DNA of 64,000 nt, from contig JAZGTN010000025.1 in the NCBI GenBank assembly GCA_037783415.1, forward strand, positions 248,001 to 312,000, read 5' to 3'. The notes beneath the pieces were generated by a model. It was not told the DNA's origin. It was given only the letters and a program-made list of their open reading frames with translations, and ran no database searches. Shown in pieces: positions 12,805 through 60,601 of this stretch. The position numbers and the translations under genes are program-made. Source of the DNA: Leptasterias polaris. Lineage: Eukaryota > Echinodermata > Asteroidea > Forcipulatida > Asteriidae. How positions within the stretch are numbered: position 1 is the first letter of the stretch; each line of letters begins with the position of its first letter.

Positions 12805-13328
12805 GACTCCGACTGGTTCTTGGTAAGGAAACCAGCCGTAGGGACCAGGCGGACACCGCCTGGTTCCCACCGGATGTGTCCTACCTCCATCGACAGAGAG
12901 TGCAACTTACTGCGCCGTCGGGATGTAGCGACAGCCAGAAGGAAAGCAACCTTGATGGAGAATTGCAACAAAGTTGAATGATCTATCGGTTCGAAAGGGG
13001 GCTTTGCCAAAGTAGATAGCACCCTAAAGAGGTCCCAGGACGGAACCAGCTTGCATACTGGGGGAAGAGACAAACATCCCCTTGATCAGCTGGCTGATTG
13101 CTCAGTTATCCGAGATGGAAGAACCGTCTGGGAAACCCAAATGGATTGCGGCAACAGCCGACTGTTGAGAGGCCGCTGTCAAAAAGGTATACAAAGAAAT
13201 CCCCCACTTCCCCTACAGAAGTATTGGAGGGACGGAGGGATTTCTGTCCACACCATTTAAAGAAATGGCGTAGTCGGCTGTCGTTTACCTTTCTGAATGA
13301 GGCTCGATGCGAGTGAGCTGCGATTGTG
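12792..13328 (-). pseudogene. DIRS tyrosine recombinase, truncated
   Basis: First frame (13328-13106): RKVNDSRLRHFFKWCGQK, then SVGEVGDFFVYLFDSGLST, the N-terminal SAM-like DNA-binding domain of DIRS/Crypton recombinases. Second frame (13073-12792): PPVCKLVPSWDLFRVLSTLA, KPPFEP and LLAVATSRRRSKLHSLSM, with the first catalytic Arg box. The frame then runs into the internal complementary region, so the HxxR and Tyr boxes are absent. One frameshift between the halves. Upstream it abuts the inserted LINE. Confidence 0.85.
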
Positions 13329-14750
13329 CTTCTTCTTCTTTCTTTATTGAACACTTCAAGGTCTTTTGAGCTGCAAGGGTTGGGTAGTAGAGGGCAGACA
13401 AGGAAGTGCTCCATAGTATGGTCTACTTCTCCACATTCACAGGTGTTTGGACCAGTCTTGTAGCCCCATCTGACCAGAGCATCTTTTGATCGTCCAGTTC
13501 TCGTTCTGAGGCGGTTGAGTGTTTTCCATTGACCCAATGGTGCTTCTGGGCCAGGGGGTAGGTTTTCAGTAGGGGGTCTCTTGACAGTTGGAGGAGGGTC
13601 ATTCTCAAGCTTTTCCATCCAGAGTTGGATTCTGGTTTCTTCCCGAGACTTTGTTAGGGGCTGGACATGGCTGAGAAAGCTTCTTCTTGACTTTAGCCGT
13701 AGGGCTGGAGGGTGACATCCATGGAGGAGATGGCGTTCATCACTAGCAACTTTGGTTTTCTCGACTCGGCTGGCCACTTCCCGTCTAATGTCAGCAGGGG
13801 CAATGCCAGCGAGAAGGTGCAGGTTGCCTGTGTTGGTGGGTTTCAAGCAGCCAGTGATCAGGCGGCAGGTGTTGTTCAATGCTGGGTCAAGTTTCTTGAC
13901 CTCTCCCAAACAGGACATGCATATTCCGCAGTGGAATAGCACAGAACCAGAGCAGTAGATCTTAATGTGTGTTCTGTGGCTCCCCATTTGGAGCTGGTCA
14001 GTTTTCGTAGGATGTTGTTTCGAGAACCGACTTTGGATTTCATGTTTTTGATGTGCTTCTTGAAGGAGAGAGTACGATCCAGGGTTACTCCAAGGTACAT
14101 GTAGACAGGGTGAGTACAGTGCTCAAGTGGTGTTCCAGAACATTTGATGTTAAGTGGTCGGTTGGCTTCACGGTTCCTGAGATGGAAGGAGCAGACTTGG
14201 GTCTTTGGAGGGTTGGCATGTAGGTGGTTGTGCTCCTAATAGAGGAGTACATGTAGGTCATCGAGGGCTGTGGTGAGGTTTGCTTCTACTGCTTCAAGAG
14301 AGTTCTCTTGAGACGTTACTCAGAGATTGTCGGCTGGTCGTTGGCTGGTCGATGGTGTAGATGTTATATAGTAGTGGGGCCAGCACACTGCCTTGAGGTA
14401 GGCCATTTAGTTGTTGTCGCGACTCTGCTTGATATTCAGGACAACAAATAAGCGCCTGTCTTTCAGGAGGGCTCAAATGAGGTCTGTGAGTGCCAGGTCT
14501 TTTGACAAGATCTTTTTAAGGAGGCGGCGATGGTTCACAGTGTCATATGCGGCAGACAGATCAACAAAGACTGCTCCTGTAACCAGTCCTTTTTGGAATC
14601 CGTCTTCAATGTGTTGAGTGAGGTTCAGAGGTTGGCTTGTTGTAGATTTGCAGGTCGGAATCCGGCTTGTTGAGGGATGATGGCTGGTTCAGCAACAGGG
14701 GCAAGCCTGTTGAGAATCAAGCGCTCGAACAGCTTGTAGAGGTGGCCTAA

Positions 14751-21836: not shown

Positions 21837-24800
21837 AAACCAGAGTAAAGCACCAAGCATACAGTGTTTGACCATACACCAGAGTAAAGCACCGACCATA
21901 CAGTGTCTGACCATACACCAGAGTAAAGCACCAAGCACAGTGTTTGACAATACACCAGTGTAAAGCACCAAGCATACAGTGTCTGACCATACACCAGAGA
22001 AAAGCACCAAGCATAAAGTGTTTGACAATACACCAGAGTAAAGCACCAAGCATACAGTGTTTGACCATACACCAGAGTAAAGCACCAACCATACAGTGTT
22101 TGACCATACACCAGAGTAAAGCACCAAGCACAGTGTTTGACAATACACCAGTGTAAAGCACCAAGCATACAGTGTCTGACCATACACCAGAGTAAAGCAC
22201 CAAGCACAGTGTTTGACCATACACCAGAGTAAAGCACCAACCATACAGTGTTTGACCATACACCAGAGTAAAGCACCAAGCACAGTGTTTGACAATACAC
22301 CAGTGTAAAGCACCAAGCATACAGTGTCTGACCATACACCAGAGAAAAGCACCAAGCATAAAGTGTTTGACAATACACCAGAGTAAAGCACCAAGCATAC
22401 AGTGTTTGACCATACACCGGTGTAGGGCACCAAGCATACAGTGTTTGACCATACACCGGTGTAAAGCACCAAGCATACAGTGTTTGACCATACACCAGTG
22501 TAAAGCACCAAGCATACAGTGTTTGACCATACACTAGTGTAAAGCACCAAGCATACAGTGTTTGACCATACACTAGTGTAAAGCACCAAGCATACAGTGT
22601 TTGACCATACACCAGTGTAAAGCACCATGCATACAGTGTTTGACCATACACCAGTGTAAAGCACCATGCATACAGTGTTTGACCATACACCGGTGTAAAG
22701 CACCATGCATACAGTGTTTGACCATACACCGGTGTAAAGCACCAAGCATACAGTGTTTGACCATACACCAGTGTAAAGCACCAAGCATACAGTGTTTGAC
22801 CATACACTAGTGTAAAGCACCAAGCATAGTGTTTGACCATACACCAGTGTAAAGCACCAAGCATACAGTGTTAATGACCATACACCAGTGTAAAGCATCA
22901 TGCCTACACCGTTTGACCATACACCATACACCAGTGTAAAGCACCAATCATACAGTGTTTCATCATACACCAGTGTAGAGCACCATACAGTGTTTGACCA
23001 TACACCAGTGTAAAGCACCAACCATACAGTGTCTGACCATACACCAGAGTAAAGCACCAAGCACAGTGTTTGACAATACACCAGTGTAAAGCACCAAGCA
23101 TACAGTGTCTGACCATACACCAGAGAAAAGCACCAAGCATAAAGTGTTTGACAATACACCAGAGTAAAGCACCAAGCATACAGTGTTTGACCATACACCA
23201 GAGTAAAGCACCAACCATACAGTGTTTGACCATACACCAGAGTAAAGCACCAAGCACAGTGTTTGACAATACACCAGTGTAAAGCACCAAGCATACAGTG
23301 TCTGACCATACACCAGAGTAAAGCACCAAGCACAGTGTTTGACCATACACCAGAGTAAAGCACCAACCATACAGTGTTTGACCATACACCAGAGTAAAGC
23401 ACCAAGCACAGTGTTTGACAATACACCAGTGTAAAGCACCAAGCATACAGTGTCTGACCATACACGAGAGAAAAGCACCAAGCATAAAGTGTTTGACAAT
23501 ACACCAGAGTAAAGCACCAAGCATACAGTGTTTGACCATACACCGGTGTAAAGCACCAAGCATACAGTGTTTGACCATACACCAGTGTAAAGCACCATGC
23601 ATACAGTGTTTGACCATACACCAGTGTAAAGCACCAAGCATACAGTGTTTGACCATACACCAGTGTAAAGCACCAAGCATACAGTGTTTGACCATACACT
23701 AGTGTAAAGCACCAAGCATAGTGTTTGACCATACACCAGTGTAAAGCACCAAGCATACAGTGTTAATGACCATACACCAGTGTAAAGCATCATGCCTACA
23801 CCAGTGTAAAGCATCATGCCTACACCGTTTGACCATACACCATACACCAGTGTAAAGCACCAATCATACAGTGTTTCATCATACACCAGTGTAGAGCACC
23901 ATACAGTGTTTGACCATACACCAGTGTAAAGCACCAAGCATGCAGTGTTTGACCATACACAAGAGTAAAGCACTAAGCATACAGTGTTTGACCATACACC
24001 AGTGTAAAGCACCAAGCATACAGTGTTTGACCATACACCAGTGTAAAGCACCAAGCATACAGTGTTTGACCATACACTAGTGTAAAGCACCAAGCATACA
24101 GTGTTTGACCATACACTAGTGTAAAGCACCAAGCATACAGTGTTTGACCATACACCAGTGTAAAGCACCATGCATACAGTGTTTGACCATACACCAGTGT
24201 AAAGCACCATGCATACAGTGTTTGACCATACACCGGTGTAAAGCACCATGCATACAGTGTTTGACCATACACCGGTGTAAAGCACCAAGCATACAGTGTT
24301 TGACCATACACCAGTGTAAAGCACCAAGCATACAGTGTTTGACCATACACCGGTGTAAAGCACCAAGCATACAGTGTTTGACCATACACCAGTGTAAAGC
24401 ACCATGCATACAGTGTTTGACCATACACCGGTGTAAAGCACCATGCATACAGTGTTTGACCATACACCGGTGTAAAGCACCAAGCATACAGTGTTTGACC
24501 ATACACCGGTGTAAAGCACCAAGCATACAGTGTTTGACCATACACCGGTGTAAAGCACCAAGCATACAGTGTTTGACCATACACCGGTGTAAAGCACCAA
24601 GCATAGTGTTTGACCATACACCAGTGTAAAGCACCAAGCATACAGTGTTAATGACCATACACCAGTGTAAAGCATCATGCCTACACCGTTTGACCATACA
24701 CCATACACCAGTGTAAAGCACCAATCATACAGTGTTTCATCATACACCAGTGTAGAGCACCATACAGTGTTTGACCATACACCAGTGTAAAGCACCAAGC

Positions 24801-25166
24801 ATGCAGTGTTTGACCATACACAAGAGTAAAGCACTAAGCATACAGTGTTTGACCATACACCAGTGTAAAGCACCATGCATACAGTGTTTGGTCACACACC
24901 AGTGTAGAGCACCAACCATACAGTGTTTGATCATACACCAGTGTAGAGCACCAGGGGTCGATTTCACAAAGCACTAAGATCCATCTTAAGATGAGTTATC
25001 AGTATTACCATAGTGATTTGTATTGTGACATCACTCTTTGCTAAGCAACTACGATGGATTTGCAGTTACGATCAATCTTAACTCTTTGTGAAATCGAGCC
25101 CTGGCATAGTGTTTGACCATACACTAGTGTAAAGCACAGAGCATACAGTGTTTCGTCATACATCAG
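21837..25166. repeat. 39-bp minisatellite with higher-order structure
   Basis: About 80 units of ACCAGTGTAAAGCACCAAGC ATACAGTGTTTGACCATAC (39 bp); variants of 35-42 bp. A distinctive block (GTGTTAATGACC...CATCATGCC...GTTTCATCATAC) recurs near 22870, 23762 and 24647, marking ~890-bp higher-order units. As 39 = 13 codons with no stop, frames of up to 659 codons stay open on the minus strand (13-mer YAWCFTLVYGQTL), but these are not genes. Wholly inside a CUL2 intron; interrupted by a MITE at 24951-25104. Confidence 0.95.
24951..25104. repeat. MITE copy 2 (intact), inside the minisatellite
   Basis: 154 bp with 21-bp inverted ends: CCAGGGGTCGATTTCACAA and its inverse ending in CTTTGTGAAATCGAGCCC-TGG, one mismatch. 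Interrupts the 39-bp array, which resumes at 25105. Serves as the empty-site reference for the TTAA insertion in copy 1 (8717-10726). No clear target duplication. Confidence 0.85.
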
Positions 25167-28804: not shown

Positions 28805-29079
28805 TTAGTCATTTCCTTCTTGGATGTTCAAACCATGGGGCTGAGTGGTCTTCATGCGCCTTATCCAAAGTTTTTCCCTACTCAGACGGACAGTCTCTCT
28901 GCAGTTACCTAGTGCCTCAATACCCTGTAAATTCATGTCAGAAATGGAGTGATTAGGAAGATTGAAGTGGTGTCCTACAGCTTTTGGGTGTTGACTGTGG
29001 ATCTGTGGCCGTAGAAATGCCTCTTGAGTGTGGTTCTTGTTTCACCTATATATATTGAACACCACAAACTCTGCAAGAT
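28805..29079 (-). pseudogene. Penelope-like element, GIY-YIG domain part
   Basis: Minus-strand frames give SCRVCGVQYI, then YIGETRTTLKRHFYGHRST, HHFNLPNHSISDMNLQGIEA and LWIRRMKTTQPHGLN, stop at 28805-28807. This is the C-terminal GIY-YIG endonuclease of Penelope-like retroelements. One or two small frameshifts. It is the continuation of the element whose RT part lies at 39350-41741; the two are separated by the Helitron-like cluster. Confidence 0.85.
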
Positions 29080-29279
29080 ACTAGGCATTAGCTGTTCCGT
29101 GTATTATTGTTTTGCTTCGATTAAGTGCTTCAAAGCTTTAAAGTTGGTCTGATTTCAAGATAGAAGACTCTTGACCTTTGACAGGCCCTTTTTCACTTAA
29201 GTGTGCCTAAAAACCTAAACCTGGTCTTCATTCTGATACTGAATCGAAAGGAGCTTTTAAACCAGAAATAAAGGTCAAC

Positions 29280-29640
29280 ATGGGGTCATGGTAACCCTTG
29301 TCTAACATTTAATACTCAAAGGGTTTATAACTGAAAAGAAATTGAAAATCGGTTGTGTAGTTCTTGAGATATGGTCTCACTTCCAGTTGACCCGGAAGTA
29401 AAGGTCAACATAGGGTCAAGGTTACCCAAGGCAAATCTCCAATGCCCAAGGAGTCTATAACTAAAAATAGTTTGAAAATCGGTTGTGTAGTTCTTGAGAT
29501 ATGGTCCCACTTCCGGTTGACCCGGAAGTTAAGGTCAACATGGGGTCACGGTTACCTTAAGGCTAATCTCCAATGCCCAAGAAGTCTATAACTGAAAAAA
29601 GTTTGACGATCGGTTGTAAAAAATTACATTGAGAGTTAAG
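29280..29640 (+). repeat. ~130-bp tandem repeat in E1, about 3 units
   Basis: Unit contains AAGGTCAACATGGGGTCACG, GTTACCCAAGGCTAATCTCC, AATGCCCAAGGAGTCTATAA and CTTGAGATATGGTCCCACTT followed by CCGGTTGACCCGGAAG. Short frames of MGPYLKNYTTDFQ type are translations of this repeat. Confidence 0.9.
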
Positions 29641-32539
29641 TTCATGTACTAAGCTTCGATTTGATAAAGGATCTAACTCTTTCATATTTACGCTTTAGGA
29701 TATTAGGTCACATGCAAGGTTGTGTAAACAGGTTTTTTTACTTGAAATTTTGTTTATGAAACTGCTGTTACACGGGTCACCAACTGTTTCAGAAACGGTA
29801 TGTTGACAAAAAATAACCGTGAATGCTCAGGCTTATACGTAAGCCTCCGACGGTTACACGGTTAAGTGACAGATCTTACGGTTAAACATTTACATTTGTA
29901 CGTTTCGGATAAACTTTGAAAAATTCACTTAAAAAGTGTCGCGTAATGCTGACCATAATAACTGTGATCACGATTTTCATAGCACAATATCCCATAAAAC
30001 ACACACACATATCATTCCCAATTTACAGACTCGTAGTCTTTGTTATTTTAATACAACTGTGCGTGCAGCAATATTTGTGAGAAACATTGAACACTAGGGG
30101 GCGTTCCACAACAATTCGATTGCGAATGCTCGCTTTTGCAGGGTGATTGCGCAAAGTCAAAATTCTACAATGAAGAATGAAGACACAATGTTTTTGATCA
30201 CATGTCGGTTGTGTAAACAGGTTTTTTTACTTGAAATGTTGTTTATGAAACTGCTGTTACACGGGTCACCAACTATAGTGTTTCACAAGCGGTTACACGT
30301 TTAAAGAAAATAAGCCTGTGACGGTTACACGGTTAAGTGACAGATCTTACGGTTAAACGTTCACATTTGTATGGTCCGGATAAACGTTGAAAAATTCACT
30401 TGAAAAGTGCTGCAAAATGCTGACCATAATAATTGTGATCTCGATTTGCACAGCAAACGATCCCATACCACACACACCCATATTGTTCCAATTTACAGGC
30501 TTAAGTCTTTGTTATTTCATTACTTTGCGTGCGACATTAGTTGCAAGAAACATTGAACGCTAGAGGGCGTTCCACAACAAATCGATTGCACGGTTACCCA
30601 GTTAACCAAACGATAATCCTGTTAATTGTTTAAATGTTTACGGTTAGGTCAGCGTAAACAAATTAACTTGAAAAGTGCTGCGATATTGTGACCATTACTT
30701 TGCGTGCGGCATTAGTTGCAAGAAACATTGAACGCTAGAGGGCGTTCCACAACAAATCGATTGCACTTTTATTTTGCAGGGTGATCTTTTATTTTGCAGG
30801 GTGATTGCGCAAAGTAAAAATGCTGTGATTAAGACCCAATGTTTCTGATCGTTTGAGTGGTTGTGTTAATGGGTTTTTTGTTCATGAAACGCGTGTTACC
30901 AACCATTTCAGAAATGGTTTCACAATTACAAAAACAACTGTAAATGCTCAGGCTTTGTAAGCCTGCCTGTGACGGTCACACGGTTAATCATCCGACCCTT
31001 GCTCTATGATCCGATCAACCGGTTAAACATCTACATTATTACGGTTCGGATAAATGTTTAAAAATCAGCCTCAAAAAGTGTAGCGAAATTTCGACCATAA
31101 TAAATGCGAACGGTTACACATCTTAACTGACCGTTTCAGAAATGATTACGAGTTTACTAAAAAATAGCCGTAAATTCATGTAAAGCTAAATACTGTTGTA
31201 TTTAAATCGTAATTGTAACAATTGTTCTACCCTGAAATGCCAATCGAGTATGTTATATTTGTTTAGGCTAAAACAGTAAATTCATATGGGATACGAGTGT
31301 ATTGTAATTTTGTCTCTTCACACCCCCAAATCCAACACTGACCGTTTAGCCATGGAAAAACTAATTTCTCTTTACCACACCTTTCCTCAATCAGCTCTTT
31401 TTATTGCTAAAACATATCGTTTTCTGGCGAACAGGACCCGAGCGCAGACAAGTCTACCACGCCGGCAAAATCGCCTAAAACACGGCGAAATGTTTTCGTC
31501 GTTCATGCTGAAACCTGAATAACGACCTATCTGAGCGACACGACGCTCAGACATCAACAATTTTTCTCGATTTTTGTGAATGAACGTAGACTTGTGTCAG
31601 TCGGCGACAGGAATGATGACTCTATGTATATTCTACAAAAACGGCAACAACACGGGTCATAAATGGGTTTAGGACTTGAACGAGACTTGAACGAGTCTAA
31701 GAAATCCAAGAAAGAGCACCGTTAAACTCGTATAGCGCCCTCAATATTTCAATTCTCGATTCTTGTGAACAAACGTAAACTTGTGTCAGTCTGCGACAGT
31801 AATGCATCTCTATGTATATTCTACAAAAAACGCAACAACACGAAACGCAACAACACGGGTCATAAACGGGTCGCGGACTTGAACGAGTTTAAAATTTGAA
31901 TCCATTCCGTAAATAAACACATATCAAATTCTAGGCAGAGCAACCACGGCGTTCAATTTGCTTGAGAATGACAATGTTTTAATAAGTTTTGATGCTTTTA
32001 AACTGACCGTCAAAAAAATCTTTCTTGTTTTAAGAAAATTTGTGTAATCTAGAACGTTAAATTTGACCTTAATTGAAAAATCATTTTTCCTGAGAAGTCG
32101 GATTTGTTTTCACTATTTCCATTTGTTTTGTACAAGGGCGAAAATGCACAATAAATGACGTCATTGTGACGTCGTCCGTAATTTTAGGCCGGAAGGCACA
32201 TCTACAGTACCCCAGAAGTCTAAAATTGAAAAAAGTTTGACGATCGGGGGTATACTTTTTGAGATATGGTGCTAACAAGGTTGGCTAATTAAATATTCAC
32301 CTCGCTGTTAAGTGACTAATTAATTAAGAATTTTAAAAAAAAATTACATTTTGAGTTAAGTTTATGTACTAAGCTTCAATTTGATATAAGATCTAACTCT
32401 TTCGTATTTACGCTTTAGGATATTAGGCTTAAACAAAAAATGTGTGCAATTGCTATGGGGATTTAGGTGGAAACAAAGAATAACTAGACATTAGGTGTTT
32501 GTGAACAAACACAAAGCTGTTCCGTGTATTATTGTTTCG

Positions 32540-33510
32540 CTCAAAGGGTTTATAACTGAAAAGAAATTGAAAATCAAGTGTGTAGTTCTTGAGATATGGT
32601 CCAACTTCCGGTTGACCTGGTAGTAAAGGTCAACATGGGGTCACGGTTACCAAAGGCTAATCTCCCATGCCCAAGGAGTCTATAACTGAAAAAGTTTCAA
32701 AATCGGCTGTGTTATTCTTGAGATATGGTCCCAATTCCGGTTGACCCATAGGTAAAGGTCAGAATGGGGTCACGGTTACCCAAGGATAATCTCCAATGCC
32801 CAATGAGTCTATAACTGAAAAAAGGTTTGAAAAACGGTTGTGTAGTTCCTGAGATATGGTCCCACTTCCGGTTGACCCGGAAAGAAAGGTCAACATGGGG
32901 TCACGGTTAGCCCAGGCTAATCTCCAATGACCAAGGAGTCTATAACTGAAAACAGTTTGAAAAATGGTTGTGTAGTTCTTGAGATATGGTCTAACTTCTG
33001 GTTGACCCGGAAGCAAAATTCAACATGAGGTCACGGTAACCCAAGGCTAATCTTCAATGCCCAAGGAGTCTATAACTGAAAAAAGTTTGAAAATCGGTTG
33101 CATAGTTCTTGAGATATGGTCCCACTTCCGGTTGACCCAGAAGTAAAGGTCAACTTGGGGTCACGGTTACCCAAGGCTAATCTCCCATGCCCAAGGAGTC
33201 TATAACTGAAAACAATTTGAAAATCGGTTGTGTAGTTCTTGAGATATGGTCTCACTTCCGGTTGACCCAGAAGTAAAGGTCACCATGGGGTCACGGTTAC
33301 CCAAGGCTAATCTCCAATGCCAAAGGAGTCTATAACTGAAAAAAGTTTGAAAATCGGTTGTGTTGTTCTTGAGATATGGTCCCACTTCCGGTTGACCCAT
33401 AGGTAATGGTCAACATGGGGTCACGGTTACCCAAGGCTAATCTACAATGCCCAAGGAGTCTATAACTGAAAAAAGTTTAAAAATCGGTTGTGTAATTCTT
33501 TAGATATGGT
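32540..33510 (+). repeat. ~130-bp tandem repeat in E2, 7-8 units
   Basis: Same unit as in E1, E3 and E4; ~85-90% alike by eye. Copy number varies between elements (3, 7-8, 3, 4), as expected for length-variable cores. Confidence 0.9.
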
Positions 33511-33799
33511 GCTTATAAGGTTGGCTAATTAAATATTCACTATTGGCTAATTAATTAAGAATTTTAACATTTTTTACATTTAGAGTTAAGTTCATGTACT
33601 AAGCTTCAATTTGATATATGATTTAACTCTTTCGTATTTAGGCTCTAGGATATTAGGCTTAAAGAAAAAACGTGTACAAATGCTATGGGATTTAGGGTGG
33701 AAACAAAGAATAATAATAATAACTAGACATTAGGTGTTTGTTTACAAACAAGAAGCTGTTCCGGTTTTCTGATTCATAAACAAAAATTAACAACCAAAT

Positions 33800-34180
33800 A
33801 AAGGTCAACATGGGGTCGATCATGGTAACCCTTGTCAAACATTTACTGCCCAAAGAGTCTATAACTGAAAAAAGTTTGAAAATCGGCCGTGTAATTCGTG
33901 AGATATGGTCCCACTTCCGGTTGACCCGGAAGTTAAGGTCAACATGGGGTCACAGTTACTCAAGGCTAATCTCCCTTGCGCAAGGAGTCTATAACTGAAA
34001 AAAGTTTGAAAATCGGCTGTGTAATTCTTGAGATATGGTCCCACTTCCGGTTGACCCGGAAGTTAAGGTCAACATGGGGTCACAGTTACTCAAGGCTAAT
34101 CTCCCTTGCCCTAGGTATCTATAACTGAAAAAGGTTTGAAAATCGGCTGTGTAATTCTTGAGATATGGTCCCACTAATTA
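33800..34180 (+). repeat. ~130-bp tandem repeat in E3, 3 units
   Basis: Same family; the last unit is cut off after GATATGGTCCCACT and runs into the E3-specific TTAATTAA region. Confidence 0.9.
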
Positions 34181-34208
34181 AATATTCACCTCGCTGTAAA
34201 TGGGCTAA

Positions 34209-34282
34209 TTAATTAAGAATTTTTAAAAAAATTACATTGAGAGTTAACTATCAATGTAATTTTTTTTTAAATTCTTAATTAA
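34209..34282. repeat. 32-bp-arm snapback palindrome in E3
   Basis: TTAATTAAGAATTTTTAAAA...ACATTGA at 34209-34240 is mirrored by TCAATGT...TTCTTAATTAA at 34251-34282 around a 10-base centre. E1 and E2 have only one arm at the equivalent place, so the second arm arose by local inverted duplication. Confidence 0.8.
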
Positions 34283-37200
34283 AAGTTCATGTACTAAGAT
34301 TCAATTTGATATAGGATCTAACTCTTTCATATTTGTACGCTTTAGGATATTAGGTCACATGCACGGTTGTGTAAACGCGTTTTTTAACTTGAAATTTTGT
34401 TTATGAAACTGCCGTTACACGGGTCACCAACTGTTTCAGAAACGGTATGTTGACCAAAAATAACCGTGAATGCTCAGGCTTATAGGCCTACATAAGCCTG
34501 TGACGGTAACACGGTTAAGTGACAGATCTTACGGTTAAACGTTTACATTTGTACGGTTCGGATAAACGTTGAAAAATTCACTTAAAAAGTGCCGCGTAAT
34601 GCTGACCATAATAACTGTGATCACAATTTTCACAGAACAATATCCCATAAAACACACACACATATCATTCCAATTTACAGACTCGTAGTCTTTGTTATTT
34701 CAATACAACTGTGCGTGCAGCAATATTTGTGAGAAACATTGCACGCTAGTGGGCGTTCCACAACAATTTGATTGCACATGCTCGTTTTTGCAGGGTGAAT
34801 GCGCAAAGTCAAATTTCTGCAATGAAGAATGAAGACACAATGTTTTTGATCACATGCCGGTTGTGCAAACAGTTTTTTTTACTTGAAATGTTGTTCATGA
34901 AACTGCTGTTACACGGGTCACCAACTGTTTCAGAAACGGTTACACATTTACAAAAAAATTACTGTGAATGCGCAGGCTTATACGTAAGCCTGTGACGGTT
35001 ACACAGTTAACTGACAGATCTTACGGTTAAACGTTCACATTTGTACGATTCGGATAAACGTTGAAAAATACACATGAAAAGTGCTGCGAAATGCTGACCA
35101 TAATAATTGCCACACACACCCATATCGTTTCCAATTTACAGGCTTAAGTCTTTGTTATTTCATTACTCTGTGTGCGGCATTAGTTGCACGAAAAATTGAA
35201 CGCTAGAGGGCGATCCACAACAAATCGATTGCACGGTTACCCGGTTAAACCAAACGATAATCCTGTTAATCGTTCAAATGTTAACGATTGGGATCAGCGT
35301 AAACAAATTCACTTGTAAAGTGCTGCGAAAATTGTGACCATTACTTTGCATGCGGCATTAGTTGCAAGAAACATTGAACGCTAGGGGGCGTTCCACAACA
35401 ATTCGATTGCGCATGCTCTCTTTTGCAGGGTGATTGCGCCAAGTCAAAGAACTGCTATGAAGTATGAAGACACAATGTTTTTAATCACATGCCCAGTTGT
35501 GTTCACGGTTACCCAAGGCTTTTCGAGATACAGTGATCTCAAGATTGGCTAATTAAATATTCACCTCACTGTAAATGGGCAAATTAATTCAGAATAATAA
35601 AAAAAATTACATTGAGAGTTAAGTTCATGTACTAAGCTTCAATTTGATATAGGATCTAACTCTTTCATATTTACGCTTTAGGATATTAGGTCACATGCAA
35701 GGTTGTGTAAACAGGTTTTTTTTACTTGAAATTTTGTTTATGAAACTGCTGTTACACGGGTCACCAACTGTTTCAGAAACGGTATGTTGACCAAAAATAA
35801 CCGTGAATGCTCAGGCTTATACATAAGCCTGTGACGGTTACACGGTTAAGTGACAGATCTTACGGTTAAACGTTTACATTTATTTGTACGGTTCGGATAA
35901 ACGTTGAAAAAAATCACTTAAAAAGTGCCGCGTAATGCTGACCATAATAACTGTGATTACGATTTTCACAGCACAATATCCCATAAAACACACACACATA
36001 TCATTCCAATTTACAGACTCGTAGTCTTTGTTATTTCATTACATCTGTGCGTGTAGCAATATTTGTGAGAAACATTGCACGCTAGGGGGCGTTCCACAAC
36101 AATTCGTGAATGCGCAGGCTTATACGTAAGCCTGTGACGGTTACACGATTAAGTGACAGATCTTACGGTTAAACGTTCACATTTGTACGGTTCGGATAAA
36201 CGTTGAAAAATTCACTTGAAAAGTGCTGCGAAATGCTGACCATAATAATTGCCAAACACACCTATATCGTTTCCAATTTACAGGCTTAATTCTTTGTTAT
36301 TTCATTACTTTGCGTGCGGCATTAGTTGAAAGAAACATTGAACGCTAGAGGGCGTTCCACAACAAATCGATTGCACGGTTACCCGGTTAACCAAACGATA
36401 ATCCTGTTAAACGTTTAAATGTTTACGTTTACATTTAAATGCCGAGGCTTTGTAAGCCTGCCTGACGGTCACACGTTTAACCATCCGATCAACCGGTTGA
36501 ACATCTACATTATTACGGTTCGGATAAATGTTGAAAAATCATCCTCAAAAAGTGTCACGAAATTTTGACCATAATAAATGTCAACGGTTACACATGTAAC
36601 TGACCGTTTCAGAAATGATTACGAGTTTACTAAAAAATAACTGTAAATGCATGTAAACAAAATGATGTTGTATTTAATTCGTAATCGTAACAATTTTTCT
36701 ACCCTGAAATGCCAATCGAGTATGTTATATTTGTTTAGGCTAAAACAGTAAATTCATATGGGATACGATTGTATTGTAATTTTGTCTCTTCACACCCCCA
36801 AATCCAACACTGACCGTTTAGCCATGGAAAAACTAATTTCTCTTTACCACACCTTTCCTCAATCAGCTCTTTTTATTGCCTTATTGCAAGCGCCATCAAG
36901 TTTTGTAACTGATACATCGCGGTTTCCTGAAGTAATGCCTTTGCACAAGAAATTTTAAACATATCGTTTTCCGGCGAACGGGACCCAAGCACAGACAAGT
37001 CTGCAAGGCCGTAGACATCGCCAAGAACGCGGCGCTCCGATTCTTTACGTCTACGCTGAAATCTGAATTACACGACGCTGCGCTGATAGCAAGACAAATT
37101 CTTTTCGATTCTTGTGAATGAACGTAAACTTGTGTCAGTCGGCGACAGGAATGATGACTCTATGTATATTCTACAAAAACGTCAACAACACGCGTCATAA

Positions 37201-37899
37201 ATGGGTTTAGGACTTGAACGAGTCTAGGAAACCCTAGAAAGAGCACCGTTAAACTCATATAGATTGAGGGCACTATACGAGTTTAACGGTGCATTTTTAA
37301 CTTTTTAAAAAAGGGTAAAAAATTTACTCCTTGTCGTTTATAAACACATATCAAATTCTAGTCAGAGTACCTTTGGCGTTCAATTTGCCTGAGAATTTGG
37401 GGTTTTTTCTCTACTGACAATGTTTTAATAAGTTTTGATGCTTTTAAACTGATTGTCTATAATACCTTTCTTGTTTTAAGAAACATTTGTGTAATCTAGG
37501 ACGTTAAATTTGAGCTTAATTGAAAAAACTGTGTTTCTAGAAGTCGGATTTGTTTTCACTATCTCCATGTGTTTTGTACACGGGCGAAAATGCGCAATAA
37601 ATGACGTCATTGTGACATCGTTCCACATTTTAGGCCGAAAAGCACATCTACAGTACCCAAGAAGTCTAAAACTGAAAACAGTTTGACGATCGGTCGTCTA
37701 TTTTTTGAGATAGAGTGGTCTAAAGTCTGGCTAATTAAATATTCACCTCGCTGTAAAGTGGCTAATTAATTAAGAATTTTAACATTTTTTACATTTAGAG
37801 TTAAGTTTATGTTCTAAGCCTCAATTTGATATATGATTTAACTCTTTCGTATTTGCGCTCTAGGATATTAGGCTTAAAGAAAAAACGTGTGCAAATGCT

Positions 37900-39066
37900 A
37901 TGGGGTTCCGACGGGTAAAGAAATGTTTGAAGTCTAAACTGAACGGGGGTAACATGATAAAGGCGATTAACACCTGGGCCGTGTCTTTGATGAGGTACAG
38001 TGGGGGTATTATCGAGTGGACTAAACAAGATCTAGATGTCGCTGATAGGAGGACAAGAAAACTCATGACCATGCATGGCATGCTTCATCCGCGGTCAAAT
38101 GTTAGTAGACTCTATCTTCCGAGGTCAGAGGGCGGAAGGGGATTGCTGAGCGTGGCGGACAGCGTTAACATCGAACGCAGGAGTTTGCAGTGTCATGTCG
38201 GGAGGTCCGAGGAGAGGTTGTTGAAAGCTGCGCAAAGATATACGAGGACAGACGAAGTTGGGCCAAAGGAGTACAAAAGGGTAATGAAAGAGGAAAGGCA
38301 ACAGGATTGGAGGAATAAACCGCTTCATGGCCGATTCTTGAGATGCACTGAAGAAGTGGCGAGCACCAAGTCCTGGAATTGGTTAAGGAGCGGAGAGCTG
38401 AAGAAGGAAACCGAGGGCTTGATTACTGCGGCGCAAGACCAATCGCTAAGGACAAATGTAATGAAGGCAAGGATAGAGAAAGCAAACGTCTCTCCTATGT
38501 GTAGAATGTGTAATAAGGCTGAGGAGACTGTATTTCATATTGTCAGCGAATGTAGTAAGATGGCCCAGACGGAGTACAAGGGAAGACATGACAAGTTGGC
38601 CAAGATGATCCACTGGGATCTGTGTAAGAAGTATGATGTCCACGTCACTGCGAAATGGTACGACCATGTGCCGGAGAAAGTTATAGAGACCGATCAGGTC
38701 AAGATCCTCTGGGACTTTAACATTCAGACTGATCATGTTATAGAACATAGGCGTCCGGATGTTGTAGTCTTGGATAAGACGACGAAGATGTGTCATCTCA
38801 TTGACATAGCAGTGCCAGGTGACATAAGGGTAGCTTCGAAGGAGTTAGACAAGATCCAAAAGTACCAAGACCTGGCCAGGGAACTCCGTAAAATTTGGCA
38901 GGTGAAAGTGAAAGTAGTCCCTGTGGTGGTTGGAGCACTTGGCACCATTCCGAAGGCACTGGGGAAACATCTAGATGAAATAGATACAACTGTGAGGGTA
39001 GATCTGTTACAGAAGGCAGCACTTTTGGGAACAGCGAGAATCCTGAGAAAGACCCTTGAGATCTAA
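37900..39066 (+). CDS. LINE ORF C-terminal: RT end, zinc knuckle, REL endonuclease
   Basis: 388-codon uninterrupted frame. Residues ~20-120 are the post-RT region (INTWAVSLMRYSGGIIEWTK, RKLMTMHGMLHPRSNVSRLY, EGGRGLLSV). About residue 200 is a CCHC knuckle (C-x2-C-x9-H-x4-C: CRMCNKAEETVFHIVSEC). About 284-300 is the restriction-like endonuclease core RPDVVVLDK...LIDIAVPGD, then KYQDLARELRKIWQVKVKVV and PVVVGALGTIPK to the C-terminus. This is the R2-group (REL-type) arrangement. The ATG at 37900 belongs to the Helitron-like host, so the start is accidental. Intactness implies a recent insertion. Confidence 0.85.
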   Translation: MGFRRVKKCLKSKLNGGNMIKAINTWAVSLMRYSGGIIEWTKQDLDVADRRTRKLMTMHGMLHPRSNVSRLYLPRSEGGRGLLSVADSVNIERRSLQCHVGRSEERLLKAAQRYTRTDEVGPKEYKRVMKEERQQDWRNKPLHGRFLRCTEEVASTKSWNWLRSGELKKETEGLITAAQDQSLRTNVMKARIEKANVSPMCRMCNKAEETVFHIVSECSKMAQTEYKGRHDKLAKMIHWDLCKKYDVHVTAKWYDHVPEKVIETDQVKILWDFNIQTDHVIEHRRPDVVVLDKTTKMCHLIDIAVPGDIRVASKELDKIQKYQDLARELRKIWQVKVKVVPVVVGALGTIPKALGKHLDEIDTTVRVDLLQKAALLGTARILRKTLEI

Positions 39067-39187
39067 GGCTACGGGACGTAGCCCGACTCAAGGAGTTACC
39101 GGCACAAAGGAAAATGTGATCTTTCTTTTGTAGGCTGTGATGAAATGAAATAATAAAAATAATAATAATAATAAAAATAATAAAAAT
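37906..39187 (+). mobile_element. 5'-truncated REL-endonuclease LINE
   Basis: Inserted in E3: host GCTATGGGG is followed at once by LINE sequence, which ends in a (AAT/AAAT)n tail at ~39147-39187. Carries only the C-terminal third of the polyprotein, as an open frame (next entry). Confidence 0.85.
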
Positions 39188-39349
39188 CTCGACGAAAACA
39201 ATAGCTGTTCCGACTGCATCGGAACAACTAATAATAATAAAAATAATAAAAATCTCGTAGCTGTTCCGACAGCTAGGTCGGAACAGCTAATAATAAGAAA
39301 TTTTTTGACGAAAACAATAGCTGTTCCGCCAGTAGGTCGGAACAGCTAA

Positions 39350-41741
39350 TTAGATAAGATTAGTGGTGGTGCAGGTGACATGACCCCTCGTCTTATGGGT
39401 GGTACCACCAGTATGGCTGGAAAAGGAGTCTGTGATTCCCTGATGTGGTGTCTACAAACGATGCATTTGGATGTGTTGGGACACCTAAAAGTGCCCTGTG
39501 GCAAAGGGGGATTAACATCATCATTATAATGGGGGGGGGGGGGGGGGGACTTCTCCCCGGATGATGAGATCCCTGAGACTGGGTGGGCATCGGTAGGCAA
39601 CTATGGGTTCTTCTTGTACAGCACGTGAAGCCGATCTGATGTGTGAAGAATATGATGGTTAGAACTGGTTATTTAATGAATGGGAGGAAGTGAGGGTTGA
39701 AAAGTAACGAAGAAAGGAACTTTCCCCTTGGAACTCTGTTGTTGCTTGGGTCCTTTGGAGAGTACCGACTCCCTAGAACGAACCTTGACTTTCTGGATCG
39801 CTCGATGGACTGCTAGGGAGCTATGACCCCTGGAAACAAGGTATTTTTTAAGTTCCTGTGAGTGGTGGAAAAAATCAGAATTATTAGAATAGATTCAACG
39901 GAGTCTGAGGGCCTGACTGTAGGCTATGCTGGTTTTGCAGTGTCTGGGGTGACTGCTGGTTGAGTGGGGGTATTGATGTTTATCTGTGGGCTTAACAAAG
40001 AGATCTGTGATTAAGCCATCATCTGTCTTAATATAACCTTGACATCCAAAACCGGGTGTCCTTGGTCGAGTATTCTTTCGTGAATTTGATGGTCCTGTGG
40101 AAGGAATTAATGTGGTTAATGAATGCTGTGAGGCTTGCTTCATCACTAGCCTGGACGATATAGCGCCACCAGACCCAGGAACAGCATGGGGCTGACGCCA
40201 ACATGTGCTGTTCAAGTTGGCTTATGAATAGGCAGGCCATTGAAGGTGCCATACGTGTACCCACTGCAGCAGGAAATTCTTACCCAAGAACGAAAAGTTG
40301 TTTTTAGTTAGAACATGTTGCATGAGGGATACAATGCCAGAAATGGGTGGTGACATGTGACCACTCTTAAACAGGGCTGAGGAGCAGGCAGCAATACCTT
40401 CATCTTGGGGGATGTTGGTGTACAAAGAGGACACATCAAAAGTACCGATGATAGCTGTGTTGGGGACCTGCTTCTGAATACTTGAGATTTTACAGAGGAA
40501 ATCTGGAGTGTCATGAATATATGATGGAACCTGTGGCATAAGCGGCTTGAGTAAACTGTCATCAAAAAGAGATATGTTCTCAGTGGGGAACCATTGCCAG
40601 ATATGATGGGACTCCCTGGGTTGTCTGGTTTGTGTACCTTGGGAAGGAGGTAAAATCTTGCTGTTCTACAGTCTACCGGGGAGAGAAACTTGTGAGCTTT
40701 CTTGGAGAGGTGGTCTTGGTCGTGCATTTCGTCCAGTGTTTGTTGAATCTCCTTTGAAAAGGTGCCTGTTGGATCAGTGTCAAGGGTTTTATAGTTAGTT
40801 TGGTTGCTGAGTTGTCTTATGGCTTCATGTATTGCTGACGGCCCATAACAACAACAGCAGAGCCCTTGTCAGCTGGCTTGATGATGATGTCCTTCTGTGC
40901 TCGTAGTCTTAAGGGCCTCACGTTCTTCTCTAGGGAGGTTGTCATGAGTCCTGTGGGTGGAATGATCACTGGGATTAATTTGTGAACTAACAACCTGTAT
41001 GTAAGTTGCAAGAGATGGCACACAGTTCTTAGGTGGCACCCATTTACTCTTGCAGTAAAATGGCTCAGGATCCATAGGTGGTGAATCAAGGAAATATTCA
41101 CGGAGGCGAATTCTGCGGTAGTAATCAGTAAGGTCCTGACTGAACTCAACCTGATTCACTGTGGGGGAGTGGGGCAGAAGTTGAGTCCCTTGGAGAGTAG
41201 GCTGTGTTCTGTACATGTATATGAAAGGGTAGACGATGAGAGGTTAATGACTGTGGATTGAGGGACTGACTGGTCAGCCTCAGGGGGTATGTTGCGCTTG
41301 AATCATCTCTGTCTGTACTGTTGCTGTTTCGAGACAAGACGGCCAATCTTGTCATTTCTCCTAGAATTCAGAACAAGTTTCTCACTGGTGAATTGCTCAA
41401 AACGGGCAAGTGAGCAGATGGATCTAAGTTCTGCTCCAAGATAGGATATATCTTGGTTAAAGCTGTTTGAGACAAAATTCACAGTGTTCTGTTAGAATAC
41501 GAATGAGATTAAGCGATGTACTATGGAGTGTGTTGTTCCACTGTCTGCAAAGTGGGTTAGACAGAGACCCAAGGTCTGGGTCAAATTTAACCTGTAAACC
41601 TGTGGGAATGAAACGGGTTAGCGTGTAGAACCTGTAGTTGTCTTGATGATATGAATAACGCAGTGCTTTCTCTTTAAGTTTCCTAAGTTCCTGAAACAAG
41701 CGAACGCATCTTCGGTTAGACATGGTCAAAGAGAAAAACAA
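39350..41741 (-). pseudogene. Penelope-like element, N-terminal and RT part
   Basis: In order on the minus strand: an N-terminal region (RRCVRLFQELRKLKEKALRY), DYYRRIRLREYF, a KDIIIKPADKGSAVVVM block, FYLLPKVHKPDNPGSPIISG, SLYTNIPQDEGIAA, GTRMAPSMACLF, WWRYI (decayed catalytic region), LITDLFVKPTDKHQYPHSTS and a Cys-rich linker (FRCPNTSKCIVCRHHI). These are the hallmarks of Penelope-like reverse transcriptases. Frames shift repeatedly, so inactive. The sequence breaks at 39350 and resumes at 29079 with TTNLI joining SCRVCGVQYI. Confidence 0.88.
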
Positions 41742-48964: not shown

Positions 48965-50490
48965 AAGTAACTATTATCTGCAAAGCAGCTCTCATGCAAA
49001 TCAGAAAAGTAGGTCAAGTCCGATGCAATCTTGATGATGATTACACTCTTCTACTTGTACACACCTTTGTCACTTCTAAACTCGACTAATTCAATTCTCT
49101 TGTCACTGGACTTTCAGATAAAGAACTTTCCAAGATTCAATGAGTTCAAAACACCGCTGCTCGCCTCGTCTCAGCACACCTTGTTCTCAACATACACCTA
49201 TCTTACAAGAACTCCACTGGCATACACATTAAATCTCCTCACTTACAAAGCTCTCCATGGACTATCTCCAGACTATATATCTGATCTTCTGCAAAAATAT
49301 ATTCCTGTTTGAGCTCTTCATTTTGCTGGCCAATCCTAACTGACAACGAACTACTGTTTCCATAAAATTCTATGGCCAAGGAGCCTTTTATTTCATTGCA
49401 CCTTCATTATGGAATGACTACCAGTTGATATTCACCAAGCTGACTCTGATTTGATTGTCAAGGGACTTTTATTTCATTGCACCTTCATTATGGAATGACT
49501 ACCAGTTGATATTCACCAAGCTGACTCTGATTTGATTGTCAAGGGACTTTTATTTCATTGCACCTTCATTATGGAATGACTACCAGTTGATATTCACCAA
49601 GCTGACTCTGATTTGATTGTCAAGGGACTTTTATTTCATTGCACCTTCATTATGGAATGACTACCAGTTGATATTCACCAAGCTGACTCTGATTTGATTG
49701 TCAAGGGACTTTTATTTCATTGCACCTTCATTATGGAATGACTACCAGTTGATATTCACCAAGCTGACTCTGATTTGATTGTCAAGGGACTTTTATTTTA
49801 TTGCACCTTCATTATGGAATGACTACCAGTTGATATTCACCAAGCTGACTCTGATTTGATTGTCAAGGGACTTTTATTTCATTGCACCTTCATTATGGAA
49901 TGACTACCAGTTGATATTCACCAAGCTGACTCTGATTTGATTGTCAAGGGACTTTTATTTCATTGCACCTTCATTATGGAATGACTACCAGTTGATATTC
50001 ACCAAGCTGACTCTGATTTGATTGTCAAGGGACTTTTATTTCATTGCACCTTCATTATGGAATGACTACCAGTTGATATTCACCAAGCTGACTCTGATTT
50101 GATTGTCAAGGGACTTTTATTTCATTGCACCTTCATTATGGAATGACTACCAGTTGATATTCACCAAGCTGACTCTGATTTGATTGTCAAGGGACTTTTA
50201 TTTCATTGCACCTTCATTATGGAATGACTACCAGTTGATATTCACCAAGCTGACTCTGATTTGATTGTCAAGGGACTTTTATTTCATTGCACCTTCATTA
50301 TGGAATGACTACCAGTTGATATTCACCAAGCTGACTCTGATTTGATTGTCAAGGGACTTTTAAAGACTCACCTGTTTGAATCTACATTTATTTAAACAAA
50401 TTGCTAAATATATTTCATTGTTTTGTGTTGCGCATAGTAGAGGTTCCTGCAATATGTGCTTTATAAATGTCTCATATTGTTTTTATTATT
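48965..50490 (+). mobile_element. L2-like LINE 3' fragment with amplified C-terminus
   Basis: Plus-strand remnant: TFVTSKLD, GLSDKELSKIQ, VQNTAARLVS, then TYKALHGLSPDYISDLLQKY, the L2/CR1 post-RT region. The C-terminal block FIAPSLWNDY...LIVKGL has been tandemly multiplied (next entry) before LLKTHLFEST and the 3' end GTGCTTTATAAATGTCTCAT plus T-rich (TTATT) tail at 50455-50490. Confidence 0.85.
49381..50360 (+). repeat. 83-bp tandem array derived from LINE coding sequence, ~12 copies
   Basis: Unit TTTTATTTCATTGCACCTTC ATTATGGAATGACTACCAGT TGATATTCACCAAGCTGACT CTGATTTGATTGTCAAGGGA C (roughly 83 bp). Copies are almost identical (one visible change, TTTTATTTTATTGC near 49795). The unit is the LINE segment encoding FIAPSLWNDY...LIVKG. 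Confidence 0.95.
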
Positions 50491-52959: not shown

Positions 52960-53874
52960 CTCCCTTATTATTGCTCTATGGCTGTGAGGCCTGCATGATG
53001 ACCAAACATCTTGAGAAGGCTAGATAGAAATGTCAAATGGAGTAAAAGCTGAAGCTCAGATTCTTCTTCACTACAGTTGAGTCAGTCCTGCCCTATGGCT
53101 GTGAGGCCTGGACGTTGACCAAACATCTTGAGAAGAGGCTAGATAGGAATGTCAAATAGAGTAAAAGCTGAAGCTCATATTCTTCTTCACTACAGTTGAG
53201 TCAGTCCTGCTCTATGGCTGTGAGGCCTGGATGATGACCAAACATCTTGAGAAGAGGCTAGATAGGAATGTCAAATAGAGTAAAAGCTGAAGCTCATATT
53301 CTTCTTCACTACAGTTGAGTCAGTCCTGCTCTATGGCTGTGAGGCCTGGACGTTGACCAAACATCTTGAGAAGAGGCTAGATAGGAATGTCAAATAGAGT
53401 AAAAGCTGAAGCTCATATTCTTCTTCACTACAGTTGAGTCAGTCCTGCTCTATGGCTGTGAGGCCTGGATGATGACCAAACATCTTGAGAAGAGGCTAGA
53501 TAGGAATGTCAAATAGAGTAAAAGCTGAAGCTCATATTCTTCTTCACTACAGTTGAGTCAGTCCTGCTCTATGGCTGTGAGGCCTGGATGATGACCAAAC
53601 ATCTTGAGAAGAGGCTAGATAGGAATGTCAAATAGAGTAAAAGCTGAAGCTCATATTCTTCTTCACTACAGTTGAGTCAGTCCTGCTCTATGGCTGTGAG
53701 GCCTGGATGATGACCAAACATCTTGAGAAGAGGCTAGATAGGAATGTCAAATAGAGTAAAAGCTGAAGCTCATATTCTTCTTCACTACAGTTGAGTCAGT
53801 CCTGCTCTATGGCTGTGAGGCCTGGATGGTGACCAAACATCTTGAGAAGAGGCTAGATAGGAATGTCAAATAGA
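52960..53874 (+). repeat. 119-bp tandem array derived from LINE coding sequence, ~8 copies
   Basis: CTATGGCTGTGAGGCCTGG recurs at a spacing of 119 bp (GTGAGGCC at 52984, 53101, 53220, 53339, 53458, 53577, 53696 and 53815). Each unit carries KLKLIFFFTTVESVLLYGCE followed by AWMMTKHLEKRLDRNVK, then a stop and the restart. The terminal unit continues after E4 at 55403. Confidence 0.93.
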
Positions 53875-55402
53875 ACTAGAGATCAGGTGTTCGTAAAAAC
53901 GAACACAGAGGGGTTTTGGTTCATGGAAAAAAAAGACAAACAAAGAAGTATAACTCTACGACATGTGGTTCAGGAAATTTTGTTTGTTTTTTTAAATTGA
54001 ACTTCCTGTCTAAACCGGAAGGAAAGGTTAAATCGAGGGTCATGTTTTTCAATAAAATGTCAAATGTGTCATAAGCTAGCAGACTGCACAAAAATAATGA
54101 CTTTTGCTTCGATTAAGTGCTTCAAAGCTTTAAAGTTGGTCTGATTTCAAGATAAGAAGACTCTTGACCTTTGACAGGCCCTTTTTCACTTAAGTCTGCC
54201 TAAAAACTTAAACCTGGTCTTAATTCTGATACTGAATCGAAAGGAGCTTTTAAACTAAAAATAAAGGTCAACATGGGGTCACGGTTACCCAAGACTAATC
54301 TCCAATGCCCAAGGATTATGTAACTGAAAAAAGTTTTAAAATCGGCTGTGTAATTCTTGAGATATGGTCTCACTTCCGGTTGACCCAGAAGTAAAGGTCA
54401 ACATGGGGTCACGGTAACCCAAGGCTAATTTCCCATGCCCAGGAGTCTATAACTAAAAAAGGTTTGAAAATCGGTTGTGTAGTTCTTGAGATATGGTCTC
54501 ACTTCCGGTTTAACCGGAAGTAAAGGTCAACATGGGGTCACGGTTACCCGAGGCTAATCTCCAATGCCCAATGAGTCTATAACTGAAAAGGGTTTGAAAA
54601 TCGATTGTGTAGTTCTTGAGATATGGTCCCACTTCCGGTTGACCCGGAAGTAAAGGTCAACATGGGGTCACGGTTACTCAAGGCTAATCTCCAATGCCCA
54701 GGGAGTCTATAACTGAAAAAAGTTTGAAAATCTGTTGTGTAATTCTTGAGGTTGGCTGCAAAGACAACACCGTGAAATATTTACGGTAAACTTGTTTAGC
54801 GCCCTCTTGTGTTTAAATGTTTTCGTCTGGGCTAAAACTCGGACTTTTACATACATCGGGTATGGGATTGGTCAAGTCGACATGTAACCGAGAGATGACC
54901 AGAAAAACTTAAATATCGTCAACACAAGGGGAAAAAACATGGAAAAAAAATTATTTATTAGGAAATGGTGCAGCTATGGACTGATATCCGTGTTTGGGTA
55001 TTCATTAATCTGTCGAGTTGATCAGAATTTATGTGAATTCCGTGCCGCGTTATGGGCTTTTTAACGTGTACTTAAGGAATAGCATGGCAGGTCGGCTTCG
55101 AAAATGACGCAGTCGTCCACTCGCCGTCCGCTCGCCACAAATTTTAAACAGCTATAAAACAGGTAAGAATGACGCAATGGTGACGTCAAGATCGGAAAAA
55201 ATAAGTTAAGTTATAGCCTACAAATTGGTATGTAAACTGTAACGATTGGACATGGTTAAGTATAAGATTATCCCATAACAAAATCCGTGTACAAATCATA
55301 TGAGAAAAGGCCGTTAAGAAATATAATAATAATAATAATAAAAAACAACAGTAATCTGGACGATTACAATAGGCGTTTCGGCAACCAGGCCGAAACCCCT
55401 AA
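53875..55402 (+). mobile_element. Helitron-like element E4
   Basis: Starts ACTAGAGATCAGGTGTTCGT with hairpin GTGTTCGT-AAAA-ACGAACAC (53887-53906). Ends with hairpin GTTTCGG-CAACCAGG-CCGAAAC, then CC-CTAA at 55399-55402, followed by host T. Contains a block (54100-54260) matching E1 at 29110-29260 and four ~130-bp repeats (54265-54760). Inserted in the 119-bp array: host ...TGTCAAATAG(A) resumes as TAAAAGCTGAAGC with loss of one or two bases. No protein-coding capacity. Terminal hairpin sequence differs from E1-E3, so a related subfamily. Confidence 0.8.
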
Positions 55403-60060: not shown

Positions 60061-60321
60061 ACGCAAACGCTAACTTACACATAACGCTATCAATACACCA
60101 TGGCACTTAATGTAAACTCTATTAGCATGTGCCTATATACAAAATTGTTGAGCACATCATGCAATTTGAACCTTTGCAAAACAGAGTCTTGGGACGTGAC
60201 AGGAAGTAAAAATTTCCAGAAAGGTTTTATAGATTTTCAAACATTATTACGCTTTTTTATAAAAAGGGCATTTAGGATTGGGAAAAAATAGTGACTGAGT
60301 CTTAAATGGCTGTTTAAACCT

Positions 60322-60601
60322 TGCAGGGTCAAGGTTTGTGCGCTACAGGATCTCGTCTATGGCTTGGTCCTTTATCACATGACTACAACCTTGCAGGGTC
60401 AAGGTTTGTGCGCTACAGGATCTCGTCTATGGCTTGGTCCTTTATCACATGACTACAACCTTGCAGGGTCAAGGTTTGTGCGCTACAGGATCTCGTCTAT
60501 GGCTTGGTCCTTTATCACATGACTACAACCTTGCAGGGTCAAGGTTTGTGCGCTACAGGATCTCGTCTATGGCTTGGTCCTTTATCACATGACTACAACC
60601 C
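60322..60601. repeat. 70-bp tandem repeat, 4 essentially identical units
   Basis: Unit CCTTGCAGGGTCAAGGTTTG TGCGCTACAGGATCTCGTCT ATGGCTTGGTCCTTTATCAC ATGACTACAA. No differences seen between units, so recent. Lies ~175 bp from a CUL2 exon. Confidence 0.95.

Follow-up and report, generated by a model that had tools for sequence, protein, structure and literature searches.

In a 64,000-nucleotide stretch of the sea star Leptasterias polaris genome (assembly GCA_037783415.1, contig JAZGTN010000025.1, positions 248,001 to 312,000 of the forward strand; hereafter the window), three Helitron-like elements, E1, E2 and E3, lie one inside the other between positions 29080 and 39349. According to our analysis, they probably represent a non-autonomous rolling-circle (Helitron-like) family that inserted three times in succession and that has a built-in AAT landing pad, usable by other elements as well. 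A fourth copy of the family, E4, lies uninterrupted in the same window.

Ends of the elements

The original prediction placed three 5' ends at 29080, 32483 and 33722, all reading ACTAG-R-CATTAG, and our scan of the window found the exact motif at these positions and nowhere else. A tolerant scan gave 11 matches, the other 8 of which carry one or two mismatches, for a chance expectation of 9.5. The motif AGCTGTTCCG, allowed at most one mismatch, was found 10 times where 1.75 matches are expected. Eight of these are exact (three at the 5' ends and five in hairpin arms), and the matches with one mismatch are the sixth hairpin arm and an unrelated site at 45839.

The three 3' ends had been described as a hairpin followed by CTAA, and both the scan and the folds agree with this. 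Hairpins of the form TAGCTGTTCCG-loop-CGGAACARCTA-A terminate at 39231, 39290 and 39349. Scanning both strands for TAG...CTA-A hairpins returned five matches, namely those of E1, E2, E3 and E4 and a weak one at 5820-5844 that lacks the following T, while ten Markov-1 sequences used as controls gave 2, 0, 1, 1, 0, 0, 0, 0, 0 and 1 matches. The fold energies are -14.0, -14.5 and -8.8 kcal/mol for E1, E2 and E3 (z of -8.2, -7.1 and -5.6), and 0 of 200 shuffles was as good for any of them. The hairpin is present in all four copies (z of -8.2 to -4.8). Its stem stops 1 nt before the 3' terminus, and the hairpin arm doubles as the 3' inverted repeat.

All four copies start with (A)CTAG and end with CTAA, which is followed by a T in each case. 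The A before CTAG is found in 4/4 copies, yet a G occupies this place in the six empty sites of E4. The sub-terminal inverted repeat of E1, TTAGCTGTTCCG (29088-29099), is the exact reverse complement of the E1 3' end; it covers 10 bp in E2 and shows one mismatch each in E3 and E4. By sequence, a 5' palindrome is seen in three of the four copies (E2, E3 and E4) and E1 lacks it. Compared to shuffles, the corresponding folds have z of -4.1 in E4, -1.4 in E2, -0.7 in E3 and 0.6 in E1; E4 alone is set apart from its shuffles.

Architecture of the nest

The elements are arranged on the plus strand as follows.

29080..32482, plus strand: E1 (outermost), 5' part; ACTAGGCATTAG-CTGTTCCG, without 5' palindrome, 2.7 copies of a 130-bp repeat at 29265-29617
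32469..32482, plus strand: E1 landing microsite left of E2; GGAAACAAAGAATA, resumes at 39291
32483..33721, plus strand: E2 (middle), 5' part; ACTAGACATTAG, GTGTTTGTgaACAAACAC palindrome and AGCTGTTCCG, 7.4 copies of the 130-bp repeat
33699..33721, plus strand: E2 landing microsite left of E3; GGAAACAAAGAATAATAATAATA, resumes at 39232
33722..39231, plus strand: E3 (innermost); includes a retrotransposon insert, 2.5 copies of the 130-bp repeat
39232..39290, plus strand: E2 3' stub; (AAT)n...AATCTCG-TAG hairpin and CTAA
39291..39349, plus strand: E1 3' stub; TAATAAG...GACGAAAACAATAG, hairpin and CTAA

All six ends are present, and the three terminators end within 118 bp. E2 and E3 both have GGAAACAAAGAATA(ATA)n immediately upstream of their 5' ends. 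E1 is interrupted after GGAAACAAAGAATA and E2 after GGAAACAAAGAATAATAATAATA, and both 59-bp stubs start with TAATAA, so that the next element indeed begins at the AAT microsite, as had been proposed for both hosts. The insertion point had been put about 50 bp upstream of the hairpin; in E1 and E2 it actually lies 26-27 bp upstream of the stem, which is 59 bp before the 3' end.

Pairing the innermost 5' end with the innermost 3' end, and so on outwards, is supported by the continuity of the stubs, by sub-family features and by the single Penelope-like host that the outer pair splits (see below). E2 and E3 have in common a 5' palindrome and AATCTCG before the 3' hairpin, and E1 has neither. Bracket pairing thus joins like 5' ends with like 3' ends and the odd one with the odd one, a test that is weak alone, since random pairing succeeds one time in three. 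The three elements are complete as far as their six ends are concerned. They are not all alike, given that E1 lacks the 5' palindrome and E3 holds about 1.25 kb of foreign retrotransposon.

E1 and E3 are about 82% identical over 1.6 kb (29262-30850 versus 33926-35486) and 95% identical over one 0.5-kb piece (29618-30118 versus 35601-36106). E3 contains an internal duplication of about 88% (34174-34782 versus 35549-36120) and has lost the GGAAACAAAGA stretch. By these comparisons, the nested copies are diverged members of the family and not recent daughters of each other. No open reading frame (ORF) of at least 100 aa starts or ends within 29080-37863, which covers E1, E2 and the first 4.1 kb of E3. 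Downstream of 37863, the ORF list comprises the retrotransposon and, overlapping it on the minus strand, two ORFs, one of which extends into the stubs. By eye, a short inverted copy of the AATTAAGAATTT stretch is seen within E3 at 34204-34290.

The nest interrupts a Penelope-like retroelement shortly before its YIGET motif, with the following flanks.

28900..29079, minus strand: Penelope-like host, left flank; YIGET (GIY-YIG) region containing a frame slip, may extend further left
39350..41500, minus strand: Penelope-like host, right flank; decayed, reverse-transcriptase part as far as GHVTCTTTNLI, may extend further outwards

The right flank stops at GHVTCTTTNLI and the left flank resumes at SCRVCGVQYI, where four relatives read NLIYLISCRVCGVQYIGET or nearly so. 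These four, out of 17 candidates, match the joined flank with E-values of 1.4e-13 to 6.8e-10; part of the query is out of frame, and the matches rest on GHVTCTTTNL and YIGETRTTLK. The closest named relatives of the split element come from Apostichopus japonicus and Lytechinus variegatus. Searched against Pfam, neither the joined flank nor either of two Penelope pieces matched a reverse-transcriptase or GIY-YIG family. Since the whole nest splits one Penelope-like protein, 29080 and 39349 delimit a single insertion, and the E1 site is located to about 5 bp. A restored tyrosine codon (ILQSLWCSIYIGET) was considered as the exact E1 boundary and dropped, as the relatives show the frame SCRVCGVQYI, then a slip in the TATATA run.

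The three hairpins could also have arisen by tandem duplication of one 3' end in 59-bp units, E1 and E2 then being 3'-truncated copies arranged head-to-tail. Tandem Repeats Finder reports a 59-bp period repeated 3.2 times at 39172-39359, both stubs measure exactly 59 bp, and tandem Helitrons with 3'-truncated inner copies are known (PMC7492417). However, there are two stubs for two interrupted copies, each stub resumes the AAT tract of its partner, the sub-family features pair as brackets, and the outermost ends bound a single insertion in the Penelope-like element. We therefore regard a duplication as very improbable and retain nested insertion.

E4 as a reference copy

The uninterrupted relative E4 was used as a control.

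52972..53874, plus strand: 119-bp tandem array split by E4; six units give the empty site GGAATGTCAAATAGAGTAAAAGCTGAAGCTC
53875..55402, plus strand: E4; 3.8 copies of the 130-bp repeat, AAT tract at 55323-55341, hairpin from 55370

The array has 97% matches between units. The filled site reads ...AATAGA-ACTAG...CTAA-TAAAAG..., and comparison with the six intact units locates the insertion to one base. As in rolling-circle transposons generally, there is no target duplication, neither at E4 versus these units nor at E1 as judged against the protein relatives of its host. No ORF of at least 180 aa was found in E4 (only ORFs of that length were looked for). E4 is a good reference copy of the family.

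Rejoined across their inserts, E1 and E2 match the layout of E4 (AAGAA-TA-(ATA)n-...-GACGA..ACAATAG-hairpin-CTAA), except that E2 is short by ten bases before the hairpin. Because both read like an uninterrupted E4, the AAT tract is the family's own. It is present in all four copies, although short in E1 and fused with the retrotransposon tail in E3. The central 130-bp repeats are likewise found in 4/4 copies.

The Helitron-like identity suggested by the original prediction is thus supported by the ends, the hairpins, the A^T target and, at E4, the absence of target duplication. Exact ends, a 3' hairpin, CTAA, an A^T target and no duplication together point to rolling-circle transposition.

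A retrotransposon at the AAT tract of E3

The tract of E3 is occupied by another kind of element.

37906..39157, plus strand: 5'-truncated non-LTR (long terminal repeat) retrotransposon at the E3 AAT tract; coding part to 39066, AAT-rich tail, 3' limit merges with the E3 tract

This insert of about 1.25 kb lies just before the 3' end of E3. From about 37906 it encodes a C-terminal part of 386 aa that is 92% identical to a longer protein, P0001, in which RVT_1 is annotated. P0001 continues for 267 residues upstream of the junction with E3 sequence, which rules out the ORF 37864-39066 as a cargo of E3 or a gene of its own. A zf-RVT match to the insert has an E-value of 2.6e-4, under the curated cut-off. 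Among solved structures none matched the retrotransposon. The two reverse-transcriptase searches other than that with the split Penelope-like element gave matches from lizard, sea urchin and coral and from lancelet and sea slug, at lower identity (among the best 120 of 1037 and of 512). By comparison with E1 and E2, E3 has lost about 20 bp in front of its AAT tract at the insert.

The insert carries a putative PD...D motif, which we take to be that of a restriction-like endonuclease (RLE). It ends in the AAT tract, in which it resembles RLE-type elements that target microsatellites, such as Dong. Most RLE-type non-LTR retrotransposons are described as target-specific, some for microsatellites (PMC4640811), and Dong has been handled with TAA repeats upstream (PMC3774820). 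The presence of the retrotransposon at the same tract suggests that this tract is open to more than one kind of element.

Targeting to the AAT tract

The original prediction interpreted the serial insertion as strong self-targeting. Serial insertion into the family's own AAT tract is supported; the strong form of the claim goes further than the data, with two of the four readable insertions in AAT tracts (E2 and E3), the same tract used by the retrotransposon and chance estimates of 0.1-5%. Without its insert, E1 contains 264 AT dinucleotides, 3 of them in the run that was hit, and E2 contains 98, 10 of them in the run. The chance that both insertions hit the tract is then 3/264 x 10/98, or about 0.1%, over all A^T sites, and 3/31 x 9/19, or about 5%, over AT-rich sites only. 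Both figures are post hoc, and the cut-off for AT-rich sites (at least 79% A+T in 24 bases) is our own choice, a generous one.

In true self-targeting, transposition would be steered to a sister terminus by the transposase or by pairing with the 3' end of the element. Both nested insertions (2/2) have the same orientation and hit their hosts at homologous places, 59 bp from the 3' end, which the estimate over all A^T sites makes a rare coincidence. In addition, the sites of E1 and E4, with 71% A+T, show no strong preference for AT-rich DNA themselves; lying under our cut-off, they make self-targeting somewhat likelier and our main explanation somewhat less so. Against self-targeting stand the estimate for AT-rich sites, the landing of E1 and E4 outside AAT tracts and the use of the tract by the retrotransposon. 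A general liking for AT-rich repeats may suffice to explain the nesting. We favour the landing pad and consider self-targeting possible but unlikely.

Relation to known elements

We file the family as a Helitron-like variant and as a member of neither the Helitrons nor the Helentrons, as its ends mix traits of both. Like canonical Helitrons (Helitron1), the copies have a 3' CTAA that fits CTRR, a hairpin, an A^T target and no target duplication. They differ from Helitron1, in which the 5' end is TC and the hairpin stands 10-12 nt from the 3' end: a 5' (A)CTAG is found in 4/4 copies, the hairpin abuts the end, and there is an asymmetric terminal inverted repeat. The 5' CTAG and the end-abutting hairpin match neither group.

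With the Helentrons and their non-autonomous HINE relatives (DINE-1-like, including the oyster Cg_HINE), E1-E4 share a non-autonomous structure, sub-terminal inverted repeats, a 3' hairpin, central satellite-like repeats, a microsatellite and the absence of target duplication (PMC4067079, PMC7492417); the 5' palindrome, seen by sequence in three of the copies, may be a further resemblance. In contrast, the T^T target of Helentrons is not seen: E2 and E3 are at A^T, E4 is at A or G^T, and E1 alone can be read, ambiguously, as T^T. The elements end without a T run. The 3' inverted repeat lies 1 base from the end, whereas in mite HINEs it lies 38-60 bp inside and is accompanied by a separate palindrome. 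Cg_HINE has its microsatellite in the left module, unlike the AAT tract near the 3' end here. DINE-1-like elements have been reported from sea urchin, and a Helitron-Helentron intermediate with an A^T target is known from Phytophthora (PMC4067079).

Nested arrangements have been described in other organisms. In the helitron_mc2 model of maize, a Helitron in a Helitron in a Helitron likewise brings together several 5' and 3' termini; this three-level nest is a hypothesised intermediate, put forward to explain an element that has three 3' ends (PMC3288121). At the sea star locus, in contrast, the three-level nest is seen with its six ends in place and one homologous microsite. The same report gives multiple termini for 28.7% of maize helA elements, which reportedly insert by preference close to or within other Helitrons (PMC3288121), and adjacent head-to-tail Helitron insertions also occur in maize (PMC2267711). 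FoHeli elements of Fusarium and relatives are similar in their self-insertion, their composites with several 5' termini and, in two sub-groups, an asymmetric terminal inverted repeat (ATIR) and hairpins at both ends; they differ in their termini (e.g. TCAG...ATTTT) and target, and an AAT landing tract is not mentioned in the available part of the report (PMC5148889). Metarhizium acridum has three FoHeli-type copies in tandem, possibly resulting from two insertions into a 5' end (PMC5148889).

The literature already contains Helitrons nested in one another, composites with several termini and Helitron-like elements within microsatellites. We make no claim of novelty for the AAT landing tract. 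Lepidopteran Helitron-like elements reportedly disrupt (GAAA)n microsatellites, going by the title of a 2010 paper by Coates et al., a repeat motif other than AAT.

Proposed history of the nest

In the history that we propose, E1 would have entered the Penelope-like retroelement, E2 the AAT tract of E1 about 27 bp before its 3' hairpin, E3 the same tract in E2, and the retrotransposon the same tract in E3. Its many A^T sites would let the tract work as a landing pad, and nested copies would share one orientation owing to the strand asymmetry of the tract (A^TAATAA). Such nesting places three 5' ends in a row ahead of three terminators, an arrangement that would make composites with alternative ends possible. 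In Fusarium, a transposase is proposed to start at the outer 5' end and stop at the first 3' end, giving rise to composites (PMC5148889).

The nest may instead have arrived as a ready-made composite, either E2 with E3 or E1 with both. This is compatible with nesting and concerns the history only. Composites of nested Helitrons have been proposed in maize and Fusarium (PMC3288121, PMC5148889), and nothing at this locus decides the matter; we consider such an arrival possible, if doubtful, and keep stepwise insertion as the preferred history.

Several points weigh against our interpretation. The case for rolling-circle transposition is a structural one, and a single locus fits stepwise insertion and a ready-made composite alike. 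The sample comprises four insertions, only two of them in AAT tracts. Moreover, 34% of the A^T sites in the window reach or exceed the 71% A+T of the E1 and E4 sites, which fall short of the AT-rich cut-off. E2 and E3 are without an independent empty site, and their 5' palindromes fold no better than many shuffles. The flank of E4 is one base off the empty site (A for G, or one base lost), and about 4-5 of the 9 bases coding for YLI are missing at the junction of E1 with its host, compared to the protein relatives.

A broader formulation would be a Helitron-like family with its own oriented AAT landing pad beside the terminator, whose descendants nest co-linearly and build multi-terminator composites inside out, and whose ends unite A^T and CTAA, as in Helitrons, with the inverted repeat, hairpins and central repeats of Helentrons. 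Taken as a whole, we judge it unlikely. If copies genome-wide were to favour the same tract, the element would itself provide the site at which it inserts, and terminators could accumulate in arrays without a capture step. Exact-pattern scans for further copies gave 0 matches in viral contigs and 0 in prokaryote contigs (two patterns each), as expected for an animal element.

Other features of the window

Two tandem arrays stand out. An 81-bp array at 49377-50362 comprises 12.2 copies with 99% matches and is either very young or homogenised. A 70-bp array at 60317-60600 (4.1 copies, 100% matches) begins about 275 bp after a reverse-transcriptase ORF. The 338-aa ORF at 13106-14122 on the minus strand starts like the tail of a reverse transcriptase and ends like the beginning of a tyrosine recombinase, as judged by eye and with no Pfam match. 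Finally, a 39/78-bp minisatellite of about 3.1 kb occupies 21839-24953; its minus strand is open in long frames of up to 661 aa, which are probably meaningless.

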